Notes under the pieces: model-generated
The model's input: only the letters and a program-made list of their open reading frames with translations
Told to the model about the DNA's origin: nothing
Database searches by the model: none
In this document: positions 30,152 through 34,081 of the stretch, one piece after another
How positions within the stretch are numbered: the first letter of the stretch is position 1
Layout of the letters: each line of letters begins with the position of its first letter
Source of the DNA: Butyricicoccus sp. Marseille-Q5471
Lineage (GTDB): Bacteria > Bacillota > Clostridia > Oscillospirales > Butyricicoccaceae
NCBI RefSeq assembly: GCF_951230135.1
Contig: NZ_CATNVC010000019.1
Coordinates: 1 to 34,228 of the forward strand
Length of the DNA: 34,228 nucleotides
Reading direction: 5' to 3'
Program-made: the position numbers and the translations under genes

Positions 30152-30661
30152 TTATCGATATTGCTCCGCCCAGACAGCCGCCTGTTCGGCAAGGGATTGG
30201 GGCACGTCCAGCACTCGCTGGTTTGCACTGCCGCGAAAACGCAGTTCGATGTTACGTTCCACTTCCAGATACGGGCCGTCAACGAGCAAATCCAGCTGTC
30301 CCAGCAGCTTGATCACATAGGGATCAGGCAGCTCCAGCAACTGCTCAAAGGTGTAGCCGGTATAGGCCATCAAGTGACGGCCGGTCTTTTTCAGCTCCAC
30401 TGCAAGTTGATACAGCGGTTCCGGCTGACAAAATGGCTCGCCGCCGGAAAAGGTAACGCCCTTTACGAATTTGTTTTTGATGATGTCCGCCAGCAATGTG
30501 GCTACGCCAATCATCGTACCGCCGCTAAAGTCATGCGTCTGCGGATTGTGGCAGCCCGGACAATGATGCGGGCACCCCTGTGTAAACAGTGTGTAGCGAA
30601 ATCCCGGGCCGTCGACGATAGACTCGGCGACCGTGCCCGAAACGCGTATTTCGCCTTCCAT
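30152..30661 (-). CDS. nrdG: Anaerobic ribonucleotide reductase activating enzyme
   Basis: Radical SAM enzyme of 169 residues that makes the glycyl radical in class III ribonucleotide reductase, using S-adenosylmethionine and a [4Fe-4S] cluster. The cluster motif is C30, C34, C37 (GCPHHCPGC), with VDGPGFRY just before it and TFSGGEP for SAM binding. Its ATG shares one base with the stop of the glycyl-radical ORF (TAATG), so translation is tightly coupled to production of its substrate peptide. Confidence 0.96.
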   Translation of the reverse strand: MEGEIRVSGTVAESIVDGPGFRYTLFTQGCPHHCPGCHNPQTHDFSGGTMIGVATLLADIIKNKFVKGVTFSGGEPFCQPEPLYQLAVELKKTGRHLMAYTGYTFEQLLELPDPYVIKLLGQLDLLVDGPYLEVERNIELRFRGSANQRVLDVPQSLAEQAAVWAEQYR

Positions 30662-30849
30662 TATGCGGTGTGCTGCTCGCTGGCCGAGCAGCAGGACGAC
30701 AGGCCATGCTTGACACGGTCGGACACCTCAGCGCGCTTGGCATTATTAAAACGGTCGAGTGTGCCAACCAGATAGCCGGTGATACGACGGATACGCTCAA
30801 AGCCAACGCCCTCGCCAATCAGCATTTCATTCATTTCCTTGTTTTCCAT
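30661..30849 (-). CDS. Free-standing glycyl radical domain of class III ribonucleotide reductase
   Basis: A 62-residue protein that is essentially the C-terminal glycyl radical segment of NrdD. It contains FERIRRITGYLVGTLDRF, where RxxGY places the radical glycine at G25, and continues with NNAKRAEVSDRVKH, the usual end of NrdD. Normally this segment is fused to the large subunit. Here it has its own ATG and a purine-rich ribosome binding site (AGGAGAGGGAG), 17 bases after the stop of the large gene and in a different reading frame, so stop read-through cannot join the two. Two extra cysteines (C53, C54) lie near the end. It should dock on the large subunit and be activated by NrdG, comparable in principle to the small glycyl-radical spare part YfiD of pyruvate formate-lyase. 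Confidence 0.88.
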   Translation of the reverse strand: MENKEMNEMLIGEGVGFERIRRITGYLVGTLDRFNNAKRAEVSDRVKHGLSSCCSASEQHTA

Positions 30850-30866
30850 GATGCTTCTCCCTCTCC

Positions 30867-33200
30867 TTATTCCTTCACGATTTTTAATGTATTGGGTCGA
30901 CGATCCGCTTCTTCCGCGGCAGCGCCGTTGTAACCGATGGTGGTGCTGTTCAGGTTCTTGTACAGTCCCATCTTCTTGAGCTTGCTCAGCGGCACACCCT
31001 CGCCTTCCTTACGGCCGCAGCGCGGGCAGGTCTCGCCTATGATGCCGGTATAACCGCACACCGGATCGCGATCGACCGGATGGTTGATGGAACCGTAGCC
31101 AATGCCGATTTCCTTCATGTACCGTACGACAGCCTCAAAGGCTTCAAGATTCTGCGTCGGGTCGCCGTCCAGCTCAATATAGCTGATATGTCCGCCGTTG
31201 GTCAACTCATGGTAGGGTGCTTCACGGCCGAGCTTCTCAAACGCCGAAATCGGGAAGTATACCGGGATATGGAATGAGTTGGTGTAATAATCCCGATCGG
31301 TCACGCCCTCGATGACACCGTACTTCTCGCGGTCAATCTTGACAAAGCGGCCGGACAATCCCTCTGCCGGGGTTGCAATGACGGAAAAATTCAGCTTATA
31401 TTTCTTGGCGGCTTCATCCATGCGCGCACGCATGTGGCCGATGATTTCCAAACCGAGGTTCTGCGCTTCATCGCTCTCGCCGTGGTGCTTGCCGATGAGC
31501 GCCTTTAGGCACTCGGCAAGGCCGATAAAACCAACGGTTAGCGTACCGTGGCCGAGGACGTCCTCCAAGGTATCATCCGGACCCAGCTTGTCCGAATCCA
31601 TCCAGATGCCCTCTCCCATCAGGAAGGGGTAGTTGCGCACTCGTTTGCTGCACTGGATGCGATACCGCGCAAGCAGCTGATCAATGACGAGATCAATCTT
31701 GCGATCCAAATCCTCGAAGAACCAGTCTACATCGCCATGCGATCGAATGCCGATGCGCGGCAGGTTAATCGACGTAAAGGACAAATTGCCGCGGCCGTTG
31801 ACAATTTCGCGCGTGGGATCATATACATTGCCAATAACGCGGGTGCGGCAGCCCATGTACGCGCATTCCGTCTCCGGATGGCCTTCTTTATAATATTTCA
31901 GGTTAAACGGCGCATCGAGGAACGAAAAGTTCGGGAACAGGCGCTTTGCCGACACGCGGCAAGCCAGCTTGAACAAATCATAGTTGGGGTCTCCCTCGTT
32001 GAAGTTCACGCCTTCCTTGACCTTAAAAATATGAATCGGGAAAATCGACGTTTCCCCATTTCCAAGACCTGCCTCGGTCGCAAGCAGCAGACACTCAACA
32101 ACGAGCCGTCCCTCCGGCGATACGTCGGTACCATAGTTGAGCGACGAGAACGGAATCTGTGCGCCCGCACGGGAATGCATGGTGTTCAGGTTATGTACCA
32201 ATGCCTCCATCGCCTGATAGGTGGTGCGGCGGGTCTCCTTTATCGCATGGCGGCGGCAGAACGCCGTGATTTTGCGGGCGGTTGCGTCGTCAAAGCTCTC
32301 TTGCAGCTTTTCGGTCAGCTTGTCCTCAAAGCCGTTGGTGCCGATCAGAATCGGCTGCAGGCCCGAAGTGGCCTCGACCTCATCAAAGATTTCGCGGGAC
32401 TCGAGATCCTCGTCTTCCACATCCCGATAAATCTCCAGTGCGCGCTCCAAGTTGCGCAGGAAGCACTTGCGATACGTCTTCTTTACGCCCGGCGCCATGC
32501 AGTAATCAAAGTTTGGCACCGACTGACCGCCGTGCTGATCGTTCTGGTTGGACTGAATCGCAATGCAGGCCAACGCAGAGTACGAACGGATGTCGTTCGG
32601 CTCACGCAAGAAGCCGTGTCCGGTCGAAAAACCGCCGTCGAACAAGCTGAGCAAATCAATCTGGCAACAGGTCGTCGTCAGCGTCAAAAAGTCAAGGTCA
32701 TGAATATGGATGTCGCCCTCGCGGTGCGCCTTGGCGTGCGCGGGGTCGAGAATAAACATTTCATAAAACTGCTTTGCGCCTTCCGAACCGTACTTGAGCA
32801 TCGTACCCATCGCCGTGTCGCCGTCGATGTTGGCATTTTCACGCTTGACGTCGTTCTCAAGGGAAGACTGGAAGGTTAAATCCTCGTAGACCTTCATCAG
32901 CCTGGTGTTCATTTCGCGCACACGGGTACGCTCGTTTCGGTAGAGAATGTATTTCTTTGCGGTACGTGCATGACCATTCTTAATCAACACGTTCTCTACT
33001 GTATCTTGTACCTGCTCAACGGTCGGTGTACCGTCCTTCAGCTCGGTTTCCAACGCCTGTTCAACCAATTTCGCGAGTTCTGCGGCCATCTCATAGTCCT
33101 GTCCGCCCGAAGCCTGCGCCGCGCCGAAAATCGCGCCTGCGATCTTATCAAGTTCAAAGGGCGCCTTACGGCCGTCCCGTTTGATAATCTGCTGTACCAT
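30867..33200 (-). CDS. nrdD: Anaerobic (class III) ribonucleoside-triphosphate reductase, large part without glycyl radical segment
   Basis: Reduces ribonucleotides to deoxyribonucleotides under anaerobic conditions; 777 residues. It begins with an ATP-cone allosteric domain (about 1-95, starting MVQQIIKRDGRKAPFELD). The ten-stranded barrel follows with the conserved YMGCRTRV, where C451 is the likely thiyl-radical cysteine. A C-terminal metal-knuckle region has C715, C725 and C728 (VCGYTG, CPRCGR); only three cysteines of the usual four are visible. The expected RxxGY glycyl radical sequence does not follow. Instead there is a tail of about 45 residues including MGLYKNLNSTTIGYNG. The glycyl segment is encoded by the next ORF. 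The start has AAGGAAGG upstream and a consensus promoter. Confidence 0.93.
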   Translation of the reverse strand: MVQQIIKRDGRKAPFELDKIAGAIFGAAQASGGQDYEMAAELAKLVEQALETELKDGTPTVEQVQDTVENVLIKNGHARTAKKYILYRNERTRVREMNTRLMKVYEDLTFQSSLENDVKRENANIDGDTAMGTMLKYGSEGAKQFYEMFILDPAHAKAHREGDIHIHDLDFLTLTTTCCQIDLLSLFDGGFSTGHGFLREPNDIRSYSALACIAIQSNQNDQHGGQSVPNFDYCMAPGVKKTYRKCFLRNLERALEIYRDVEDEDLESREIFDEVEATSGLQPILIGTNGFEDKLTEKLQESFDDATARKITAFCRRHAIKETRRTTYQAMEALVHNLNTMHSRAGAQIPFSSLNYGTDVSPEGRLVVECLLLATEAGLGNGETSIFPIHIFKVKEGVNFNEGDPNYDLFKLACRVSAKRLFPNFSFLDAPFNLKYYKEGHPETECAYMGCRTRVIGNVYDPTREIVNGRGNLSFTSINLPRIGIRSHGDVDWFFEDLDRKIDLVIDQLLARYRIQCSKRVRNYPFLMGEGIWMDSDKLGPDDTLEDVLGHGTLTVGFIGLAECLKALIGKHHGESDEAQNLGLEIIGHMRARMDEAAKKYKLNFSVIATPAEGLSGRFVKIDREKYGVIEGVTDRDYYTNSFHIPVYFPISAFEKLGREAPYHELTNGGHISYIELDGDPTQNLEAFEAVVRYMKEIGIGYGSINHPVDRDPVCGYTGIIGETCPRCGRKEGEGVPLSKLKKMGLYKNLNSTTIGYNGAAAEEADRRPNTLKIVKE

Positions 33201-33264: not shown

Positions 33265-33301
33265 CGTATGTATTTTGTGTAATTCGCACAACATGTTGTG
33301 C
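33265..33301. promoter_or_regulatory. NrdR-box-like sites
   Basis: GCACAACATGTTGTGC (33286-33301) is a perfect 16-bp palindrome that fits the NrdR box consensus (acaCwAtATaTwGtgt) at all strongly conserved positions. A weaker site at 33265-33280, whose right half ATTTTGTGT fits well, lies 21 bp away centre to centre, or two helical turns. NrdR, the repressor of ribonucleotide reductase genes, binds paired boxes spaced by whole turns. The palindrome lies just downstream of the nrdD -10 box, where binding would block transcription. Confidence 0.7.
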
Positions 33302-33518: not shown

Positions 33519-33845
33519 TTGCAGGGAACAGCAAAAATCCTACCACTAGATATTGTGGTGTGGTTTCCGGTTTCTCCGCTTACAAGGTTGACTCTCGGTT
33601 CGTTTGAACGCGTTGCTGATCCCATGCGGTTCATTTCGGGCGGTGGCGTGGACACGCAGAGCATGCTGCCGAACGGCACGCCCGAAGAGGTTGCGGCACA
33701 GGTGACCGAACGTCTGCCCATCCTGTCCGAGGGCGGCGGCTACGTGTTCAACACCATTCACAACATCGTTGGCGACACCCGCGCAGAGAACATCTGGGCC
33801 GCCTTCGAAGCGGTACACAAGTACAATCAGAAGCACTTCGGATAA
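33519..33845 (+). pseudogene. 3' remnant of a uroporphyrinogen-decarboxylase-family gene
   Basis: The open frame encodes 108 residues. From about residue 36 (base 33624) it matches the C-terminal end of URO-D/MtaA-type proteins, with FISGGGVDTQSMLP, GTPEEVAAQVTERL, GGGYVFNTIHNI and ENIWAAFEAV in the expected order. Full-length members have about 340 residues, so roughly 80 percent is missing, and the first 35 residues are unrelated. No promoter or ribosome binding site is convincing. A terminator follows directly, as for the original gene. This looks like a truncation junction at about 33620, perhaps from recombination next to the rRNA operon. Confidence 0.75.
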
Positions 33846-33958: not shown

Positions 33959-33965
33959 CGTTGAT

Positions 33966-34081
<116 letters not shown>

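Follow-up and report, generated by a model that had tools for sequence, protein, structure and literature searches.

The window analysed here, 34,228 nucleotides of contig NZ_CATNVC010000019.1 from the gut bacterium Butyricicoccus sp. Marseille-Q5471, carries genes for an anaerobic (class III) ribonucleotide reductase (RNR) in which the large subunit, NrdD, and the glycyl-radical domain (GRD) are encoded by separate open reading frames (ORFs), followed by the activase gene nrdG. The features of this unit are as follows.

30867..33200, minus strand: nrdD, large subunit of 777 residues with ATP-cone, catalytic barrel, thiyl Cys451 and metal knuckle, without a GRD; stop codon TAA.
32928..33194, minus strand: ATP-cone domain, NrdD residues 3-91 (Pfam PF03477, 83.5 bits, E value 1.6e-23).
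31848..31850, minus strand: codon of Cys451 (YMGCRTRV), placed by alignment with the radical Cys416 of Prevotella copri NrdD.
31017..31058, minus strand: metal knuckle C715-x9-C725-x2-C728, with Asp712 in place of the fourth Cys of P. copri NrdD.
30870..31010, minus strand: C-terminal tail of NrdD, residues 731-777, beginning KEGEGVPLSKLKKMGLY, a candidate decayed copy of the segment that precedes the radical glycine.
30850..30866, minus strand: 17-base spacer GGAGAGGGAGAAGCATC between nrdD and the GRD gene, with a purine-rich ribosome-binding site GGAGAGGGAGAAG, both read from the sequence.
30661..30849, minus strand: free GRD protein of 62 residues (MENKEMNEMLIGEGVGFERIRRITGYLVGTLDRFNNAKRAEV...) with its own ATG (Pfam NRDD match; ratio of nonsynonymous to synonymous polymorphism, pN/pS, 0.029).
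30775..30777, minus strand: codon of the radical glycine G25, placed by alignment with Gly711 of P. copri NrdD.
30152..30661, minus strand: nrdG, radical S-adenosylmethionine (SAM) activase of 169 residues (TIGR02491, 129.6 bits, cut-off 126.1).

The frame of the GRD ORF differs from that of nrdD, and its stop overlaps the nrdG ATG as TAATG. A sequence-only reading of this DNA had already described a separate 62-residue ORF in a different frame, 17 bases downstream of nrdD and coupled to nrdG through TAATG. The sequence agrees on each point, and the numbering given there for G25 and C451 is right. The limits proposed for the unit, 30661..33200, do take in nrdD and the GRD gene, but their lower end is the GRD stop, and nrdG belongs to the unit as well.

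The two chains divide a single family profile between them. NrdD covers positions 1-531 of the 562 in Pfam NRDD (PF13597; 633.5 bits), and the small protein covers the remaining 533-562 (E value 9.7e-8). Against NCBIfam PRK07111, NrdD scores 1102.5 bits (cut-off 764). Among the defining features of a class III RNR, the locus has the NRDD and ATP-cone domains, the finger-loop thiyl cysteine and NrdG; the C-terminal glycyl-radical motif is absent from the NrdD chain. Both chains matched P. copri NrdD (8p23) in a search against solved structures, with C451 aligned to Cys416 and G25 to Gly711 after a four-residue offset (the chain counts 743 residues, the paper 739). These are the residues named as radical residues of that enzyme in the available text of its description (PMC11226230). 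In both hand-picked alignments, A3 and A5, every row keeps the RxxTGY motif. A PHROGs scan of five proteins returned NrdD families only, the free GRDs matching just at their C-terminal end, and no PF01228 match was found for the 62-residue protein in a listing to E 10, from which HMMER filters drop most matches above about 0.1.

The same arrangement recurs among relatives. The 62-residue sequence was matched in 45 of 60 genomes, its own included, and the 50 loci sorted by blastp comprise 32 split, 12 fused and 6 in which the stretch has a free GRD and lacks NrdD. By Pfam, an NRDD match is present in 56 of the 60 genomes and a GRD-less NrdD core in 33 (lying in contig pieces in G002 and G015), and a separate GRD match accompanies that core in 33 of 33. 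At all 36 split loci compared for layout (the window, the 32 sorted by blastp and three fetched separately), the nrdD stop is followed by an ATG for the GRD, whose frame relative to nrdD is 0 in 10, 1 in 15 and 2 in 11. For the GRD core (35 codons), compared over 23 sequences from the genus, mean pN is 0.013 and mean pS 0.456 (ratio 0.029), and 36 codons of the NrdD tail have a pN/pS of 0.102; the pairs compared are related by descent, and these values serve as a summary and not as a test.

A wider scan of named genomes, covering the best 80 of 589 confirmed matches, was ranked by likeness to the query and gives no estimate of prevalence. A GRD-less NrdD with a small GRD was present at 59 of the 80 loci, with nrdG within the stretch in 51; 6 loci have a fused NrdD, and at 15 a small GRD is present with no NrdD in the stretch. 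Judged by record titles, the split loci within Bacillota belong to Butyricicoccus, Oscillospiraceae, Acutalibacter, Lachnospiraceae, Mogibacterium, Erysipelotrichaceae and other Bacilli, and further ones are titled Fibrobacter and Desulfovibrio; Massiliimalia timonensis, Scatolibacter rhodanostii and bacterium 1XD42-1 are titled as strains. The adjacent pair also occurs in an Anaerobiospirillum assembly (G539). In a draw of 391 genomes from the class, GRD profile A2 matches 142 among the matches listed, and 21 of the 391, the window genome included, have the match in a small frame of <150 residues (the small frames of G187 and of G351, which contains a NrdD piece, were left out of the 21). Of 41 Fibrobacteraceae genomes, 31 have an NRDD match and 15 a GRD-less NrdD, with a separate GRD in 15 of 15 (a count without G597, which is cut at a contig end). 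Three of this family (G591, G601 and G607) carry the GRD on a different contig, with none between nrdD and nrdG; nrdG follows nrdD directly in G591 and G607; in G601 it comes ∼510 bases further on and is cut short by the end of the sequence examined. As separate observations, the whole split operon is present on a circular Subdoligranulum variabile record of 90.5 kb that is labelled as a plasmid (L298:2546-5671), and some split-operon genomes have two or three extra free GRD genes elsewhere (G337, at L127, L128 and L129; G540).

We propose, with a probability of roughly 0.8, that the locus encodes a two-component class III RNR in which the GRD would act in trans. This reading is supported by conservation, co-occurrence, selection and the genomes described below in which the pair is the only RNR detected; the same evidence bears out the earlier suggestion of a GRD-less NrdD paired with a free glycyl-radical protein. 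We infer strongly that the radical domain functions in trans. NrdD would supply the ATP-cone, the substrate sites, the metal site and the thiyl-radical C451, and the 62-residue protein the glycyl radical on G25. By homology, NrdG would install the radical, most likely with the small protein seated on NrdD, and the RIRRITGYLVG loop of the small protein would enter the barrel beside C451, as the covalent domain does in an ordinary NrdD. The loss to oxygen would then be confined to the small protein, cheap to make and open to replacement. Complex, radical transfer and replacement are thus all predicted. A docking GRD is not far-fetched, because the GRD of P. copri NrdD can turn disordered under deoxyadenosine triphosphate, according to the accessible part of PMC11226230.

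Several observations weigh against the two-component enzyme. The window genome encodes on another contig (C17) a second, Escherichia coli-like NrdD (a 711-residue frame covering NRDD 1-560) together with NrdG, and because this NrdD is intact and has its own NrdG, the split pair may be dispensable in this organism. Other RNRs were sought at 48 of the 59 split loci of the named-genome scan (11 were left out), and a second NrdD match was present in 16 of these 48 genomes, although the matches in G569 and G581 are partial and that in G556 has three stops. PF02867, the class I or II catalytic domain, was found in 5, one of which also has a second NrdD match. Neither was detected in 28, Massiliimalia timonensis Marseille-P3753 included, which speaks for the two-component enzyme; this count hinges on genome completeness, for which no rating is given for the 48. 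The split genomes are, moreover, mostly metagenome assemblies. Finally, an AlphaFold2 model of NrdD read through into the GRD (from a congener, L035, alignment A4) has a good barrel and a mean predicted local distance difference test score (pLDDT) of 74, with the GRD blocks at only about 33-73, and speaks neither for nor against docking. A second intact NrdD, with the pair itself silent, had been named at the outset as something that would refute the reading. Such an NrdD does exist on C17, and that worry is partly borne out. The window genome yielded no PF02867. In other genomes the split pair is the sole RNR detected: four genomes rated 95%–99% complete (G025, G033, G039 and G051) have it as their only NrdD by Pfam, and PF02867 was not found in any of the four.

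The NrdD chain does not simply lack its radical segment, as had been supposed. The GRD indeed resides in a separate ORF, but the retained tail GEGVPLSKLKKMGLY resembles a decayed copy of GEGVGFERIRRITGY. Scored against FERIRRI, the stretch after the metal knuckle gave a mean best score of 11.64 over 61 tails (57 split and 4 without a nearby GRD, including three truncated NrdDs), compared with 4.40 for 1000 shuffles (standard deviation 0.45, maximum 5.97); the score is perhaps inflated, the tails being related and helix-like in sequence. The motif TTIGY/TLGYHGD in the tail of Butyricicoccaceae was considered as a decayed radical site and rejected, being absent from most other split lineages; the GEGV-[VILM]E[KR]L stretch before it is the likelier decayed copy. 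On a tree of 103 NrdD cores, 60 of them split, the split label changes 8 times, with at least 5 changes forced by starred branches (a quick search under LG+G4, with one very long outgroup branch and 31 open forks). These several changes make it probable that the in-chain GRD was lost repeatedly. The motif GxGxxF precedes RIRR in 151 of 165 distinct short free GRDs and in 1 of 40 fused ones, in scans that favour query-like sequences and with about five of the 14 exceptions belonging to a ∼95-residue type. A single origin of the short free GRD, followed by spread between lineages, is suggested.

This second type of free GRD (∼95 residues, MKINVxGGELSKKEIDAYV...; 29 hand-chosen rows in alignment A5) occurs alongside intact NrdD. 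It is found in tandem between nrdD and nrdG in five genomes (L117-L121) and elsewhere in the genome in 16 with an intact NrdD, one more having its NrdD in two contig pieces. AlphaFold2 predicts, with a mean pLDDT of 67, an N-terminal beta-alpha-beta-beta domain at about 80 and a loose GRD. No partner common to all was seen among nine neighbours at loci L125, L131, L146, L161, L201 and L205; a LytR-type neighbour is common to L146 and L161. In three further genomes, NrdD terminates ≤2 residues from the position of the radical glycine, ending in HFERIPRL, SERVARIKA and VEHIKRHSCC. All three reading frames beyond these ends are free of any GRD remnant, and all three genomes have a free GRD on a different contig; PF02867 was not found in two of them, G320 and G534, and the third, G305, has one. 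In another genome, which also has a split nrdD operon, a 480-residue protein (L065:343-1782, plus strand) ends in an NrdD-type GRD and has no other Pfam match.

Free GRDs were also recovered from viral records, of which the scan kept the best 80 of 358; they contain 71 distinct GRD segments. The GRD has neither NrdD nor NrdG in its flanks in 72 of the 80, and the six viral NrdD cores all end before the GRD. The other 74 records contain no NrdD core over their whole length, which reaches 251, 238 and 94 kb; their completeness is not given, and absence from a fragment is weak evidence. Phage context was judged from 20 proteins at 8 of the 80 loci. Neighbours of phage type include large terminases (L254, L245), endolysins (L225, L218), a helicase loader (L254) and a clamp loader (L230), and no phage hallmark was seen among the proteins scanned at L259, L248 and L227. 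A radical-SAM family gene (phrog_1802, L218:1402-2709) lies ∼2.3 kb from one phage-borne free GRD. In GenBank, 31 phage records match the 62-residue sequence, none across >80% of its length; the best matches fall in unannotated faecal fragments and in Eggerthella phage EL753P1. The NrdD of EL753P1 (L297:3679-7131) lacks a GRD, and its finger-loop cysteine is the site of a long insertion, which we take to be intein-like; the separate GRD ORF is interrupted. Matches in Aeromonas and Clostridioides phages fall inside annotated nrdD genes.

By analogy, replacement of the GRD in the cell is somewhat favored. Exchange is plausible because free GRDs coexist with intact NrdD and because some NrdDs end within two residues of the radical-glycine position with the GRD encoded elsewhere. 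A broader proposal, to which we would give even odds, is that free GRDs constitute an exchangeable, horizontally moving radical cofactor: bacteria would keep them as spares for intact NrdD, some lineages would have abandoned the in-chain domain, and many phages of anaerobes would carry the GRD alone to sustain the supply of deoxynucleotides by host NrdD during infection. A variant of the two-component enzyme, an obligate split without exchange, would make the pair a permanent complex born of neutral gene fission, with no repair role. In its favour, the small ORF of the window starts 17 bases past nrdD and overlaps nrdG, and there is no sign of exchange. We nevertheless consider this variant rather unlikely, because free GRDs lie beside intact NrdD, both in tandem and at a distance, because GRD genes stand apart from nrdD in several genomes and because the split state changes several times on the tree.

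The remaining explanations fare far worse. A regulator or decoy that fills the barrel of another, intact NrdD would agree with the free GRDs in genomes with intact NrdD, yet is most improbable when a GRD-less NrdD is accompanied by a free GRD in 33 of 33 and 15 of 15 genomes, many split genomes have no other detected RNR and RxxTGY is invariant in A3 and A5. Programmed frameshifting or stop read-through to a full-length NrdD, slightly less credible again, could draw on the single frame that crosses the stop at 10 of the 36 loci, but the other 26 are out of frame in both directions, the GRD has an ATG after the nrdD stop in all 36, and the GRD lies on a different contig in three Fibrobacteraceae and three other genomes. 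Least credible is a sequencing error, which the sequence-only reading had held in reserve, or a pseudogene in decay, its function covered by the intact NrdD on C17, because the same split appears in many independent assemblies, under strong purifying selection and as the sole detected RNR of many genomes.

Around this unit, one further feature lies upstream of nrdD.

33275-33300, strand not assigned: two overlapping inverted repeats, a 14-base palindrome CACAACATGTTGTG (33287..33300) and TTGTG-N7-CACAA.

The repeats are a possible operator, perhaps of NrdR or Rex type. Between nrdD and a 5S rRNA gene (33965-34081, minus strand) lies a 108-residue ORF (33519-33845, plus strand), which by motif we take to resemble just the C-terminal end of a uroporphyrinogen-decarboxylase-like methyltransferase. 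Cysteine-rich C-termini (SCCS, CSCSLEEIA) are present on many free and some fused GRDs, at 30661-30700 in the window and at the protein ends in A5, and may have some part in reduction or metal binding.

The free GRD is a widespread candidate for a spare part of a glycyl radical enzyme that makes DNA precursors. Oxygen cuts such enzymes at the radical glycine; NrdDs that end within two residues of this position, with the GRD encoded elsewhere, are a natural likeness of the cleaved enzyme and open the spare-part idea to direct test. The occurrence of phage copies suggests a benefit in carrying the radical cofactor as such. No description of a split NrdD, of an NrdD radical domain as a free protein or of a phage copy was found in a literature search of titles and the starts of abstracts, with subscription papers mostly outside it. 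Sequence databases probably contain short NRDD-domain proteins already, labelled as the full enzyme. What appears new is the breadth of an in-trans radical domain for class III RNR, its spare-part form beside intact enzymes and its phage-borne form.

Compared with the known class III NrdD/NrdG systems (PRK07111, TIGR02487; PF13597), the barrel, ATP-cone, C451 finger loop, metal knuckle, GRD sequence and NrdG are alike; the GRD forms the C-terminus of NrdD in the enzymes covered by the available portions of PMC11226230 and PMC9669993, whereas here it is a separate polypeptide. In the split class II RNR NrdJa/NrdJb, the catalytic chain is likewise divided between two genes (PMC9669993, in part), but class II uses adenosylcobalamin, and the C-terminus of NrdJb is IscU-like with a zinc-finger and bears no radical. 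Phage nrdA genes cut in two by mobile elements also yield products that must reassemble (PMC2988022, from the section consulted); they carry an inserted homing-endonuclease gene, whereas only 17 bases separate nrdD and the GRD here. A further likeness, an anatomical one, is to YfiD/GrcA and T4 Y06I, described in the accessible text of PMC8683613 as small, also phage-encoded duplicates of the glycyl-radical C-terminus of pyruvate formate-lyase (PFL), including the pre-glycine stretch, a strand that PFL retains after it has been cleaved by oxygen. The retained NrdD tail and the matching stretch of the free GRD look like the same overlap as that between YfiD and cleaved PFL. The authors of the YfiD-rescue work regard, in the same text, only YfiD and Y06I as validated and spare parts for other such enzymes as possible. 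In contrast to YfiD, the window protein is of NrdD type and not PF01228, and the split NrdD has no GRD of its own, so that the radical would regularly be carried by the small protein, which would be more than a repair piece. The ∼95-residue free GRDs fit a YfiD-like duplicate beside an intact enzyme, whereas the window pairs its GRD with an NrdD that is not intact, the intact one being that on C17.

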